Part shown: piece after piece, positions 4,632 through 55,224 of the stretch
Layout: every line of letters starts with the position of its first letter
Numbering within the stretch: position 1 is the stretch's first letter
Assembly (NCBI GenBank): GCA_030019435.1
Contig: JASEEV010000007.1
Span: 1 to 55,226 of the forward strand
Reading direction: 5' to 3'
Length of the DNA: 55,226 nucleotides
DNA from: Methanocellales archaeon
GTDB lineage: Archaea; Halobacteriota; UBA148
Made by a program: the position numbers and the translations under genes
Notes under the pieces: generated by a model
What the model was told of the DNA's origin: nothing
Seen by the model: the letters and a program-made list of their open reading frames with translations, nothing else
Database searches by the model: none

Positions 4632-5129
4632 CTATTCCAGCTTTTCCTTCCAATCTCCTTTGATATATACGGAAGCTGCCATGGCAGCCATAGCGCCCTC
4701 TCCAACCGCGGTGACTATCTGCATCCCACCACAGGTGCAGTCTCCAGCTGCAAACACGCCCTCTATGTTTGTCCTCTGATGGTCGTCAACCTTTATACAA
4801 CCCCTCTCATCCAGCTCTATGCCTACCTTTTCCATTATCTGTGTCAGTGGAACTGCGCCCAAAGAGATGAAGATGCCATCGATGGGGATTTCTCGCTCCT
4901 CGCCACCATCAAATTCGATGATCTTTATTGCCTTGACCAGGGTATCTCCTTCAATTGCTTCAACGCTTGCGTTTAAAATCTGGACATTCGTCCTCTCTAC
5001 AAGTCTTTTTCTCACTATCTCTGCGATCTCCAACTCTTTTTCGTTCGAAATCAGTATCACTCTGCTCGCAAGGTCTGCTAGTAGTAGGGCTTCTCCCGCC
5101 GCCTCATCTCCAGATCCCACCACCGCCAC
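4632..5129 (-). pseudogene. C-terminal fragment of thioredoxin reductase-like flavoprotein, truncated by IS200-like insertion
   Basis: Begins inside the NADPH-binding motif AVVGSGDEAAGEAL, ends with FAD motif GVFAAGDCTCGGMQIVTAVGEGAMAA; N-terminal FAD domain absent. Confidence 0.8.
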
Positions 5130-5547
5130 GATTTTGTCTGCGTGATGTCTGAGCTGCTTGACCTCTAACGTAGTTGGTTGTTGTCTCTAGGTCTGTGTCT
5201 CCAATGCTCCTATAGAATTTGCCAGGGCTCCAGAGATGTCCTTTCGGATATCTGAGCCTATAATCTGGCTTCCTTCTGAAAAGCTCATATGCAGAGGCAC
5301 CCTTCAAAAGGTTGAATGCCTTTGAGATACTCATCGTTGTGGGAATTTCAACGATGACATGGATGTGATCTGGCATCACGCTGAGTTCTGATATGGATAT
5401 GTTGTGTCTCTCTGCTACCTTTCTGAGCGTTTCCTCGCAAAGCTTTTTATTCTCCTCCCTCCTAAACATCTTATATCGGTACTTTGGACACCACTCAAAG
5501 TGGTAGATACTTTGTCCAATTCGATGGCTTCCGCTAACTAAATCCAT
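5104..5547 (-). mobile_element. tnpA: IS200/IS605 TnpA Y1 transposase
   Basis: Y1 family: FEWCPKYRYKMF, MPDHIHVIVEIP (HUH), candidate catalytic Tyr in TNYVRGQ; C-terminal tail probably host read-through. Confidence 0.9.
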
Positions 5548-7222: not shown

Positions 7223-7503
7223 TGCGGGGGGCAGGATTTGAACCCGCGAACTCCTACGAGAATAGATCTTGAGTCTATCGCCTCCAGTCCAACCGAGGAG
7301 AAACTACGTTTCTCCTTCGAACCTCTTTCTCTCCAAAGGGGCTCCGCCCCCTCTTGACACCCCAAGGTTCAAAGGGACAGAAACCTTTAGGTTTCTGAAC
7401 CCAGGAAATCTTCGATTTCCGTGGATGGAATCCCTTGCTGGGTTTCGAAAGGGTGAAGCCCTTCGCGAAGAAAGGTTGTTTGACCAGACTTGGCAACCCC
7501 CGC
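7223..7503 (-). tRNA. tRNA-Leu(CAA), interrupted in the D-loop (insertion ~7283-7479)
   Basis: GCGGGGG...CCCCCGC acceptor, ATAGA-CTCAAGA-TCTAT anticodon arm, class II variable arm, T-arm GCGGGTTCAAATCCTGC; D-arm halves GCCAAGTCTGGTCAA and GGCG ~196 nt apart. Confidence 0.85.
7283..7479 (-). other. hairpin-rich intron/insertion in tRNA-Leu
   Basis: Perfect hairpins at 7296-7316, 7338-7350, 7378-7397, 7404-7420; three with 3-nt loops that read C-GNA-G on the minus strand. Confidence 0.75.
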
Positions 7504-7931: not shown

Positions 7932-8068
7932 AGCCGTCGGAGGGATTTGAACCCTCGACCTGCTGATCTCTTGCCAAGGAACCTACGGTTCCCTTGACCC
8001 TCCCCAAGGGGTTTAGAAGGAAGTCCTTCGGTTACGAGTCAGCCGCTCTACCACTAAGCCACGACGGC
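7932..8068 (-). tRNA. tRNA-Thr(CGT) with intron (7968-8032) at canonical 37/38 position
   Basis: GCCGTCG/CGACGGC acceptor, GCTGA-CTCGTA^...^A-TCAGC anticodon arm, T-arm GAGGGTTCAAATCCCTC. Confidence 0.92.
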
Positions 8069-50667: not shown

Positions 50668-51056
50668 TGAAAGATGAGCAAGCGCAAATGATCATACTCG
50701 CAGGAATCATCATAGCAATTGGAATAGTGCTACTTGCCATCATCGTTAACACAGCTGCCCTTTCTGGCGAAAGAACGATCAGACAAGAGCTCAGCGATGT
50801 GAACTATGATTTTAAGTGCCTGAAAGATACCTATGGAGATGTCCTGAAAAGAGCTGCAAGCGAGTCGGGTGGCAATCCTTTTGATGCAGCGAACTATCCG
50901 AAATATGAGCAACAGCTCATCGAGATATGTGCATCTGAGGGATATGCCCTGGCATTTGATAATCGCACTTATGCCGGCACCAATGCGACCGTGACCATAA
51001 CCTTTTCAGATGGTGAGACGACATATATCGAGACCAAGACCTATGAACTTGGGTGA
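50655..51056 (+). CDS. pilin-like protein
   Basis: DEQAQMIILAGIIIAIGIVLLAIIVNTA. Confidence 0.65.
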   Translation: MVQMMKDEQAQMIILAGIIIAIGIVLLAIIVNTAALSGERTIRQELSDVNYDFKCLKDTYGDVLKRAASESGGNPFDAANYPKYEQQLIEICASEGYALAFDNRTYAGTNATVTITFSDGETTYIETKTYELG

Positions 51057-51661
51057 ACATGAACCTGATAGACATATTAAAATGGAAGGAATACCTTGTC
51101 GAGAAGTTAGAGAAAAAGGAAACTTGGGTGGCCTTAACCAAGTTTTTCGCTCCGTTTGGCATTGCAGGCATCGTTGCCCTTGCGATAATTTTGACAAACT
51201 ATTTGAAGCTCGGCGGTGTGATGCTCAGCTATTTCTTCCCACCTACAGCGCTGTTGGGTAGGGTATGGGCGATACCCTTAGGTTTGGGATTGGGTCTAAA
51301 CGTATGGGCAGTCATAGGTGCGATCGTATTCGTGGATGCAGACACCAGCCTGTTTATGGTATGGAACTTTGACCTTGCCATAAAAATCCCATTTCTCGGG
51401 GAGTTGATCTTGAGAGCAGAGATGAAAGGACATGAGAGTTTGGATAGATACCCTTGGATACGGAGATTGGCCTTTGTAGGCATCGCACTTTTCGTGGCGG
51501 TCCCCTTCCTTGGAACCAATGCTGTGATCGGAGCCATCATAGGAAGGATCATTGGTATGAAGCCATGGTATACGTGGTTAGCAGTAGCGATCGGCTCGAT
51601 TTTAGGATGTGTATTTGTCGCAATTCTGGCTTATGGAGTCCACCTACTCATCCCCATATGA
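51053..51661 (+). CDS. COG2426-type small multidrug export membrane protein
   Basis: FPPTALLGRVWAIPLGLGLGLNVWAVIGAIVFVD; PFLGTNAVIGAIIGRIIGM. Confidence 0.82.
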   Translation: MNMNLIDILKWKEYLVEKLEKKETWVALTKFFAPFGIAGIVALAIILTNYLKLGGVMLSYFFPPTALLGRVWAIPLGLGLGLNVWAVIGAIVFVDADTSLFMVWNFDLAIKIPFLGELILRAEMKGHESLDRYPWIRRLAFVGIALFVAVPFLGTNAVIGAIIGRIIGMKPWYTWLAVAIGSILGCVFVAILAYGVHLLIPI

Positions 51662-51850
51662 ATCGAAGGGCTCCACCCTGCTCCATTTCGAAGGAAATGC
51701 GAGCTGTTTCATTCCCCAAAGGAAATGCGAACACTCACATTTCTCCGAAATGTGAGCACCCACAGATCTTCGATCTGTGGTTTTTCAAAACCCAGGGTTC
51801 AAAGGGACGAATTCAGGATGCGAAGCATCCGCTTCGCCATTCAAGTCCCT
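51662..51850. repeat. intergenic hairpin array
   Basis: ATTTC-GAAG-GAAAT, CACATTTC-TCC-GAAATGTG, CACAGATC-TTC-GATCTGTG, GGATGC-GAA-GCATCC nested in AAGGGAC...GTCCCTT; shares CCCA(A/G)GGTTCAAAGGGAC with the tRNA-Leu insertion. Confidence 0.8.
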
Positions 51851-51856
51851 TGGAGC

Positions 51857-54358
51857 TCATAGGATGATGTCGATGTCGAGCTCCTCTGCTAACTCCTTGT
51901 ATCGATTTCTTATCGTGACTTCAGTCACGCCTGCTACATCTGCCACTTCTCTTTGCGTCCTTCTCTCTCCACAAAGAATGGATGCGATGTAGATTGCGGC
52001 TGCTGCAACCCCAGTAGGACCTCTTCCAGAGGTCAGCTCTTTCTCCCCAGCCTGTCGTAGGATCTCGACTGCCTTAGATTGAACGTCCCCCTTCAAATTT
52101 AGACCTGAGGCAAATCTTGGAACATAATCTATGGGCGAGGTTGGTATGAGTTTAAGTCCAAGCTCCCTAGATACAAATCTGTACGTGCGCCCGATCTCCT
52201 TTCTGCCAACTCGTGAGAACTCTGAGATCTCGTCCAATGTCCTGGGCACAGAACACTGTCTACAGGCTGCATATAGTGCGGCTGCTGCAACGCCTTCGAT
52301 ACTGCGTCCCCTGATCAAATTTTGGTCCACCGCCTTCCTATAAACAACTGCAGCCGCCTCCCTGACATCTCTGGAAAGTCCCAATGTAGATGCGAGCCTA
52401 TCTAATTCTGATAATGCAAACGCTAAGTTACGTTCGGTTGCGTTGCTTACTCTGATTCTACGCTGCCATTTTCTCAGTCTATACAACTGAGCTCTGCTCC
52501 TCGATGATAGCGATTTACCATATGAATCTCTGTTTCGCCAGTCGATCATCGTTGACAATCCTTTGTCATGTATGGTGTTGTGCAAAAATATGCCGCCCAG
52601 ACCGCCAACGAAGTTCTCGTAGTTTGGCACTGACAGATCATATGCGTATTCACTTGAGGCTTTGACATTTTTCTTGCTCGTTATTCTCAGGAACACGAGT
52701 GGTGCTGTTGCGAGCTTCAGTAGCTTCTCGTCGTTGAAATCTTCTGCGATTGATATCGCAAGGTCTCTGTTGATTCGCTTTCTCTCTCTATGTTTCCACA
52801 CGTGTTTGTATTCCTGCGGTGCGGGTATTAGGTCTTCTAGTGCGCCTTTTCTTCGTCTTTTGTCCACTCTCTCAATGAATCCTAGCTCTGCTGCACTATC
52901 TGGATTTGTTATACGTGTGCCTGTGCTGTGTGACTGATCTAATTCTTGCCCTGAGGGGAGTATATGTCTTGGAATTTCTTGTTCATTGTAGTTCGCGTGT
53001 ATGCCCAGTTGGAGGTACAGCATTAGTATGTCGTTGCTCAAGTCTTTGTTCACTGATACTGTTGAAACTTGCACGACTGGTCTACTGCCGTTTTCATTTT
53101 TGAGATATACGCTACCGTCTCCGTTCACATACCCTTGCAAGAAGGCTAGTTTCATATCGTTTGATAGTGAGTAGATGAATTTTGGCACCCTTTTCTCATG
53201 AGCATTCATACCCAACTTAAATACGTCAGCAAACAATATTGCTAGGAGTTTACTGGGCACCTCGATCTGCACCGCTGATTCCTTTTGGTAAACACTTGGG
53301 TTTAGCCCAAATATGTTTCTCAGTAGGCGTTGAACTTCCTCGATGTACCCTCTCTCGTCCTTACTGAATGAGAAGTTAACATTGTGATACGTGCCCTTCA
53401 CGCTGCCCTCGCTAGCGTAGTACCCAAGAAGCTTGCACAGCTCTCCAGTGATTTCCAGCTTGATCGGCAACTCGTTTGGGCTGCTCCGAATTCCAATTCT
53501 TGCGTCACTAGGAATGCCATCAAGCATGGAGGCTATGCGTAGTGGAAGCGAGTTGCGCCTTTTCCAGTCTTTCGGTACTCTCTTTGGGGTGCCACCGTTT
53601 AGTTGTATCGCATCCAATTGAGCAAATACCTCGTCACCTATGTTTCGTACGTAAAGCCGACCATAGAGATCCTCATCGGACAGTTTTGAGAACTCATCCA
53701 GTAGGTCGATCGCTGATTTTCCACTCCCCGCAGTAGGAATGTAGTTCGGAGCAACGACGAAGTCACCCTCTCTTAGCTGAGCCACAGTGGTTGGCACAAC
53801 CTCATTGTCATGAACTGTGAAAACACTGTGCGCACCTGTGACTCGGACTTTTCGTTTGCCTTCAAGCACCAGCTCGTAGAGGTCTTCATGAAGCTTGTGC
53901 CTCGCCACATACTGAATCGGCTTAAAACTTACTTTGTAGTCCTCGTCGAATGCTACCGCATTGTATCCTTCGATCGGAACAAACTCCACTTCGCCATCAA
54001 TCTCACTGGCGATCATGTGTTTATCAACAAACTCCCCAATCTTCACTATTTCAACTTCACCACTCTTCTCATTCTCAATCACTATTGGTTCGTCGTAGTC
54101 AACACTATAGGTCATCGGTGCTCCAACTCTAGAACGCTTCATTCGTTGATCGTGATCGAAGGCTCGCCATTCAGGTCCCATGTCTATAAAATCTTCCTCG
54201 ATGACAAGACCGCATTCATCACAGACTAGCTCGGCTCTCTCATAATCATGTACAAGTTGGGTGCTTCCGCATTCTGGGCATTCTGTTTTGGTCTCCTCAT
54301 ATTCGCCCAGACCCTCACGTTCTTTTTTTATTTCCTTTGCCTTTTTGACGTCTTCCAT
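51857..54358 (-). CDS. tfb: transcription initiation factor TFB containing an intein
   Basis: Zn ribbon [39 protein letters not shown]|intein|[24 protein letters not shown]; cyclin repeats. Confidence 0.97.
52577..54106 (-). mobile_element. intein with LAGLIDADG homing endonuclease (510 aa)
   Basis: Begins [20 protein letters not shown] block [13 protein letters not shown] and [13 protein letters not shown] dodecapeptides, ends [14 protein letters not shown]. Confidence 0.95.
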
Positions 54359-54495: not shown

Positions 54496-55224
54496 TCAGC
54501 TCATGCTTATGAGCATGTTGTAGAAGATGAACTTCATCTTGACCTCACGAAACATTCCCTCTTGGCTTGTGGATCTAACAGATTCCCCCATGATCCTCTT
54601 CACAGCAGATAGCAGCCCTTCTGCAGCCCAGCGTTGACCGTATCCATGTCTCTCCTTCCACTTCTCATAGCCTAGCTTTCTGCGTTCTCGAACGCATTTG
54701 GCTCTATATGGTGAGCCCCTGGCTCTCGTGCTTGCATTCTCTCTCGTCTTTATGCCTGATTCTATGCTCTTCTGCCTCAATAAATCGAAGTTCTCCTTGG
54801 CATCGTAGCCACCATCAGCCAGAACACGCTTGATCTTGCCCTTGCCGAGGTTATCCTCAGCCTGCTCAACGAGATCCTCGAACATCTTGCCGTCTCCTGT
54901 GCGTTCATCCGTCACCTCCAGGGCTAAGAGCTTTTTACTCTTCACATCCACTGCTATATGGACCTTGATCCATCCCCTGCGTCTTTTCCACCTTTCTCTC
55001 ATCCACTCTCCCCTGTTAGTCACCTTCACACCAGAGGAGTCTAGGGCGATGATCACATCCTCGCCCTGTGGAAGATCCTCGATGTCGATGTCAAGTTGGG
55101 CCATCCTCTTGAACATCGTCGTATAGTCTGCGGCATTAAGTCCAGAGACGAATTCTGAGAGCTTCCTGAGGAAGCCCTCCATCTGCCTGTACGGCAGATA
55201 GAACAGGATGTGGACGAAGGCCAT
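54496..55224 (-). mobile_element. IS5-like DDE transposase (runs to window edge)
   Basis: IALDSSGVKVTNRGEWMRERWKRRRGWIKVHIAVDVKSKKLLALEVTDERTGDGKMFEDLV; VLADGGYDAKENF. Confidence 0.9.

Follow-up and report, generated by a model that had tools for sequence, protein, structure and literature searches.

How did an array of hairpins come to fill, to the base, the gap between two convergent genes of an uncultured Methanocellales archaeon? In the stretch of DNA analysed here (55,226 nucleotides, hereafter the window), the array occupies exactly the space between the TGA stops of an open reading frame at 51053-51661 and of a TFB gene on the minus strand (51857-54358). A large intein, equipped with LAGLIDADG homing endonuclease domains, splits the TFB gene of 833 codons, and an IS5-family transposase gene (54496-55224, minus strand) adjoins the TFB gene. 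The first-pass annotation had placed the array in a dispersed modular hairpin family able to occupy tRNA genes or intergenic space, on the basis of an 18-mer, CCCAGGGTTCAAAGGGAC, common to 51791-51808 and to 7361-7378 in a tRNA-Leu gene, with a closing TCCCTTG strand behind each. We reproduced the 17/18 identity of the two stretches and found every one of the listed hairpins in the array, namely CACATTTC-TCC-GAAATGTG, CACAGATC-TTC-GATCTGTG, GGATGC-GAA-GCATCC and GGGCTCCACCC. The closing strand of the tRNA-Leu gene lies at 7431-7437 as described, but that of the array lies at 51846-51852, nine bases off the 51837-51843 given. As evidence, however, the 18-nt match had to be discarded, being at chance level (BLAST E 0.475 in the own genome; ~2.4 such pairs expected per random 55-kb window). 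What does place array and tRNA-Leu insertion in the same family is not the 18-mer but a set of modules in the insertion (B, C, Q, L, A and I) that are 88-100% identical to other copies.

The window copy has the module order A-D-E-F-G-L-K (Table 1). Module F is nearly complementary to module D, so that D-E-F can fold concentrically. Module K is an AAGGG(G/A)C hairpin that is also found alone at the rpoK 3' end (C12:27170), where its stem reads GGGGC/GCCCC versus GGGAC/GTCCC in the window; its loop in the window holds a nested second hairpin (51816-51830). The fold of the whole array is far more stable than that of shuffled sequence, with z = -8.2 as RNA and -6.8 as DNA and 0 of 200 shuffles as stable.

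Table 1. Features of the hairpin array, of element-bearing tRNA genes in the window and of the two-hairpin unit.
Feature	Positions in the window	Strand	Remarks
Hairpin-array element	51662-51856	+	195 bp; empty in L078/L079, copies elsewhere, fold z -8.2
Module A, GAAGGGCTCCACCC hairpin, 5' end of unit	51665-51678	+	same position in tRNA-intron copies
Module D, CTCCATTTC-GAA-GGAAATGCGAG hairpin	51678-51704	+	100% to consensus
Module E hairpin	51707-51731	+	89% to consensus
Module F, CTCACATTTC-TCC-GAAATGTGAG hairpin	51734-51756	+	module scan, fold
Module G, CCACAGATC-TTC-GATCTGTGG hairpin	51760-51780	+	also closes the order-wide two-hairpin element
Linker L (TTTTTCAAAACCCAGGGTT)	51781-51799	+	94% to consensus
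Module K, CAAAGGGAC...GTCCCTTG hairpin	51800-51853	+	96% to consensus
tRNA-Leu(CAA), 196-nt D-loop intron 7284-7479	7224-7503	-	modules Q, B, C, L, A/H, I
tRNA-Thr(CGT), 65-nt anticodon-loop intron 7968-8032	7932-8068	-	module A-like start and short module-I variant (O)
Two-hairpin unit, 51 nt			TGTTGAAATYCC-NNN-GGRATTACAACTCTCRCAGATS-TTC-SATCTGYGACA; traced from the module G hairpin
Two-hairpin unit, abbreviated form			TGTTGAAA...GACA

Is the array one of many? The host genome (G000; 1.42 Mb in 87 contigs, 94% complete), the sole member of its genus among the relatives sampled, holds seven further strong matches to the array (76-96% identical, E 1e-23 to 1e-50). A query of concatenated modules gave 82 matches, a core covariance model 52 hits at E<=1 and a module scan 41 clusters, a few of which are single hairpins, all counts being approximate because the assembly is incomplete. 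The copies draw on a series of hairpins arranged as A-B-C-D-E-F-G, then linker L, H and I; the longest copy, C22:76071-76308 (238 bp), contains the complete set and the others hold subsets. The unit has CRAAGGGG...CCTTG(G) as its boundaries. Additional hairpins split module G at C22:16655. Across 16 distinct triloop stems, 96 of 96 cells are paired, compared with a mean of 67.6 and a maximum of 80 in 5000 shuffles; within the five-sequence core alignment alone, covariation was not significant. Since palindromes can also persist through repair copying, such pairing is no proof of selection on an RNA.

Copies at C11:125.7-127.1k were set aside as probable chimeras. Here, halves of different tRNAs are joined at element copies: the tRNA-Asn 3' half duplicates C18, and the tRNA-Arg(CCT) 3' half has its 5' counterpart at the end of C26 (C26:8700). 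The stretch is probably a chimera or mis-assembly, and the two tRNA-Arg(CCT) halves, one at the C26 end inside an element and one at C11:125.7k, would likewise reflect mis-assembly at repeats, a split tRNA gene being less likely. N-runs flank tandem repeat copies at C44 and C87.

The tRNA-Leu and tRNA-Thr genes of the window are part of a longer series. Element-bearing anticodon-loop introns occur in genes for tRNA-Thr, Lys, Asn, Gly, Gln, iMet, Pro, Arg, Ala, Cys and Ser, and all five tRNA-Leu genes read have an intron at the same place in the D-loop (7284-7479; C12:25218; C11:105.7-106.1k; C22:30.5k), an unusual intron position outside Thermoproteota. The tRNA-Leu(CAA) intron, which the R1 model hits at 7293-7355 with 43.5 bits, can be read off the sequence as a BHB with GGTC/GACT and an inner helix CAACC/GGTTG. 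All 6 host tRNAs that could be scored keep an intact BHB, with its 4-bp central helix and a 3-nt bulge at each exon-intron junction; the iMet intron, being out of register, was left unscored. The central helix is made of tRNA-specific bases, which also terminate the shorter introns found in relatives: the tRNA-Thr(TGT) intron is 117 nt long here versus 15 nt in G001, that of tRNA-Gln 172 versus 28 nt and that of tRNA-Gly 161 versus 41 nt in relatives. Because the splice-end bases are specific to each tRNA and common to the relatives' element-free introns, the introns came first and the repeat entered later, and the element is thus a passenger inside pre-existing BHB introns. The possibility that the repeat unit is itself the mobile intron was rejected, since the splice-end bases vary by tRNA, lie outside the unit and occur in relatives that lack it. 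The tRNA-Arg(CCT) gene of G006 (L225, C26) contains a 71-nt core-like intron with module A, linker and a partial module I, that of G001 (L224, C2) is intronless, and the host's own copy is long and cut by a contig end; the comparison of G001 with G006 points to intron loss or gain within the order. ARAGORN at default settings misses all intron-bearing tRNAs of the window.

Beyond tRNA genes and intergenic space, the two locations that had been named correctly but too narrowly, copies also occupy 23S rRNA and protein genes, the latter either internally or at their ends. We found them in spacers between tRNA genes, in 23S rRNA at C65:40311, at the ends of the genes for rpoK, a CBS protein and a ferredoxin-like ORF, and upstream of ribosomal protein L39e. 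In-frame copies lie in three protein genes. In that of an MBF1-like protein, the copy separates the N-terminal segment from the HTH domain; in that of an MJ1316-domain protein, the Pfam match extends over 100 residues, against 75 positions in the profile; in that of an ABC ATPase, the copy follows the ABC domain. Open frames run through all three inserts.

Several of these sites are empty in relatives. The TFB protein beside the array is 93% identical to those of Methanocellales archaeon STD1_76 (L078) and of Methanocellaceae archaeon UBA148 (L079), which, judged by this protein, are the nearest named relatives; in both, the stops of the TFB gene and of the convergent gene overlap as TCATAG, versus 195 bp apart here. 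At the ferredoxin-geranylgeranyl reductase site, a full-length copy of ~240 bp before the reductase gene is absent in G001 and G003, with flanks ~83% identical, and the 23S rRNA insert measures 74 nt here versus 4 nt in G001, with flanks 95% identical. Relatives without the element were also found at the CBS and L39e sites, with some length variation. MBF1 and MJ1316 were ruled out as clean insertions, both sites being length-variable in relatives. For the main family, the empty sites showed no target duplication, and the copies revealed no target in common. Together, the genome-wide copies and the empty sites in relatives bear out the proposed dispersed modular family; the result named in advance as refuting it, an absence of other copies, did not occur.

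How far does the main family reach? An exact 21-nt pattern of modules D-E returned 0 records across 85,488 GTDB species, a set from which the own genome was possibly left out, and was absent from the viral contigs searched. Over 149 Halobacteriota genomes the core model gave 24 hits in G000 and 5 in the other 148 (G006 two, G008 one, G009 one, G035 one weak), with no hit in the remaining 144, four same-family genomes included. The ABC-ATPase insert is common to G000, G008 and G009. As this gene region is 86% identical, against mostly 65-70% (one segment 83%) at three other loci compared between G000 and G008, the insert is either old or was moved horizontally.

The most useful lead on the mechanism at present comes from a two-hairpin sister element (Table 1), with its symmetric target, its lack of duplication and its precise absence from one sister genome. 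The R2 model counts 31 copies in G005, 14 each in G000 and G007, 9 in G006, 6 in G009, 4 in G010 and 3 in G008, none in G001-G004, and a few weak hits in two distant families. Host copies lie on C28, C52, C86 and C5, those of G005 include L264-L283, and a TnpB guide RNA or IS end considered at C28/C52 was dismissed because the sequence there is the two-hairpin element. Two modules of the window array resemble this element, and the model also hits the array (51731-51784, 37.1 bits, E 6.7e-8 in the window); the overlap consists mainly of hairpin G and the two-hairpin layout, and the unit as a whole probably descends from a common ancestor. The unit sits in frame in genes for LeuRS, thymidylate kinase (Tmk), TiaS, a ThiS-like protein, Endo_dU and Asn synthase in G005, CarB and DUF362 in G007, Elp3 in G010 and CobQ in G006 and G008, in both orientations and several frames. 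Elp3 aligned to a solved relative shows a single clean gap of ~20 residues at the insert, and thymidylate kinase also has a gap there, whereas that of LeuRS is spread out. In Elp3 or LeuRS the insert would be translated as VEIPxGLQLSQIFDL. Two-hairpin copies are not all harmless, since at least one, at G006:C28:48515, introduces a stop codon into an apparent PIN-domain gene.

The CobQ genes of G008 (C1:128222, L311) and G009 (C7, L310), 94% identical here, differ by exactly 51 bp (17 codons), and apart from one ambiguous base nothing at the site is duplicated. As the outgroup G006 also has the insert, G009 may have lost it precisely. Two further G008/G009 loci guessed to be orthologous by synteny showed no homology. 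In the flanks of 29 copies, T stands at -7 in 24 (p 1e-9) and S-A-A at +5 to +7, with A at +7 in 27 (p 7e-12); the target motif is thus roughly symmetric and two-sided, and its SAA side is already there in the empty G009 allele. The element's own termini are TGT/ACA ends of 3 nt only.

Based on these observations, we consider it likely that the array represents a single insertion of a mobile repeat, non-coding and non-autonomous, that spread recently, at the DNA level, in G000. Copies would persist where an extra hairpin is harmless, as in the gap between convergent genes, in BHB tRNA introns, which are spliced out in any case, at gene ends, at the tip of a 23S rRNA stem-loop or as open frames in protein linkers or loops, and arrays would grow by nesting, new hairpins entering the loops of older ones. 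The constant unit, the target preference and the precise empty sites would point to an enzyme acting on DNA; we infer a mover that acts in trans and a repeat that is either selfish or neutral. More tentatively, and as a proposal that could well prove wrong, we suggest that at least two interacting palindromic families in the order invade protein and RNA genes and nest hairpins into composite arrays, the 51-nt unit joining a TTS-N4^N4-SAA-like target without duplication, being precisely losable and being moved by novel integration machinery. No transposase could be tied to the hairpin family. The only intact Y1 transposase gene found in G000 lies in the window itself (5104-5547, minus strand), where it overlaps the start of a shortened pyridine-nucleotide oxidoreductase ORF; its product scores 106.5 as IS200 versus 53.4 as RAYT (cut-off 80), and a link to RAYT was dropped as this only intact Y1 protein is of the IS200 type.

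Could this Y1 enzyme be the mover, acting in trans on degenerate IS200/IS605 derivatives? Elements of the PATE/IS605 type have hairpins near both ends, make no target duplication and, in Haloquadratum, shrink to terminal-only forms of 52 bp (PMC3119063). Both families here are made of hairpins, the two-hairpin element has near-terminal palindromes, and the CobQ insert, without duplication and precisely absent in G009, is what single-strand transposition predicts. Nevertheless, we regard such an origin as unlikely: the two-hairpin target is symmetric (T at -7, SAA at +5 to +7) rather than one-sided over 4-6 nt, no IS605 parent with these ends was identified in a search narrower than the whole genome, and a single intact Y1 gene faces dozens of copies. 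Residence in frame in conserved genes is a further difference from PATEs. That very similar modules occur in introns of numerous tRNAs, both at the canonical site and in the D-loop, would alternatively fit a spliced intron that is mobile as in Thermoproteales, whose tRNA introns, by the account cited in PMC4090602 (Fujishima et al. 2010), transpose by an unknown mechanism; the other copies would then be re-inserted introns. We hold this to be improbable, since the splice-proximal bases are tRNA-specific, lie outside the repeated unit and recur in the relatives' element-free introns, the protein, 23S rRNA and intergenic copies, found far outside tRNA genes, carry no intron-end residues, and a search of G000 found no reverse transcriptase.

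Ectopic recombination or gene conversion between similar tRNA introns, stimulated by breaks at hairpins, would dispense with transposition altogether. Most copies do lie in or near tRNA genes, and long identical tRNA segments beside elements are common to C11 and C18, but the three clean insertions at unrelated sites (TFB, ferredoxin-reductase, 23S rRNA), with flanks undisturbed, make this explanation very improbable. Most doubtful of all appears a functional RNA or DNA structure, e.g. a terminator or 3'-end hairpin that would serve TFB and its convergent neighbour in both directions. The exact placement between two stops and the very stable fold would suit such a role; the closest relatives, however, lack the array at the same place, the same sequence also occurs in introns, rRNA and coding regions, and the window sequence has no T-run at either end of the array.

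In-frame palindromic repeats in conserved protein genes are known from Rickettsia and Wolbachia. A limited open-access literature search, which may have missed such a case, found no archaeal one. Judged by behaviour, RPEs and the SMRs and PATEs of Haloquadratum appear nearest to the mobile repeat described here, and for its tRNA part the intron transposition of Thermoproteales. RPEs are small non-coding palindromic repeats with several families per genome, many of them in frame in unrelated conserved genes and others intergenic (PMC10969869). Both families here likewise sit as palindromic repeats in frame in unrelated protein genes, but they are archaeal, occur also in spliced BHB tRNA introns and 23S rRNA, and are likened to RPEs by behaviour and not by sequence; moreover, as many as about ten hairpins make up the composite array of the main family, and the sister is only 51 nt long with a symmetric target. 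SMR-A of Haloquadratum walsbyi is a transposase-free element of ~110 bp with prominent terminal inverted repeats, which inserts without target duplication into the palindromes of other elements, mainly inside PATEs and IS605 elements (PMC3119063). Our case, likewise from a Halobacteriota host, shows neither a target duplication nor a linked transposase, and its hairpins nested in hairpin loops (module K in the window, module G at C22:16655) may correspond to such insertions, but SMR-A is not in tRNA introns or conserved proteins. MITEs differ in that no target-site duplication is found here, neither at CobQ nor at the empty sites of the main family. REP/BIME elements are dispersed hairpins in composite arrays, extragenic, and come with RAYT; dispersed hairpins and composite arrays are found here too, but the Y1 enzyme is IS200-type and no RAYT was found in this 94% complete genome. 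No known system fits all tested features, and the best reading by analogy would be non-autonomous mobile palindromic elements, an archaeal counterpart of RPEs. Such elements offer a tangible origin for the long and odd tRNA introns of archaea, for expansions of rRNA and for protein inserts confined to single lineages, and the target motif, together with the precisely empty site of the sister element, makes the mechanism testable.
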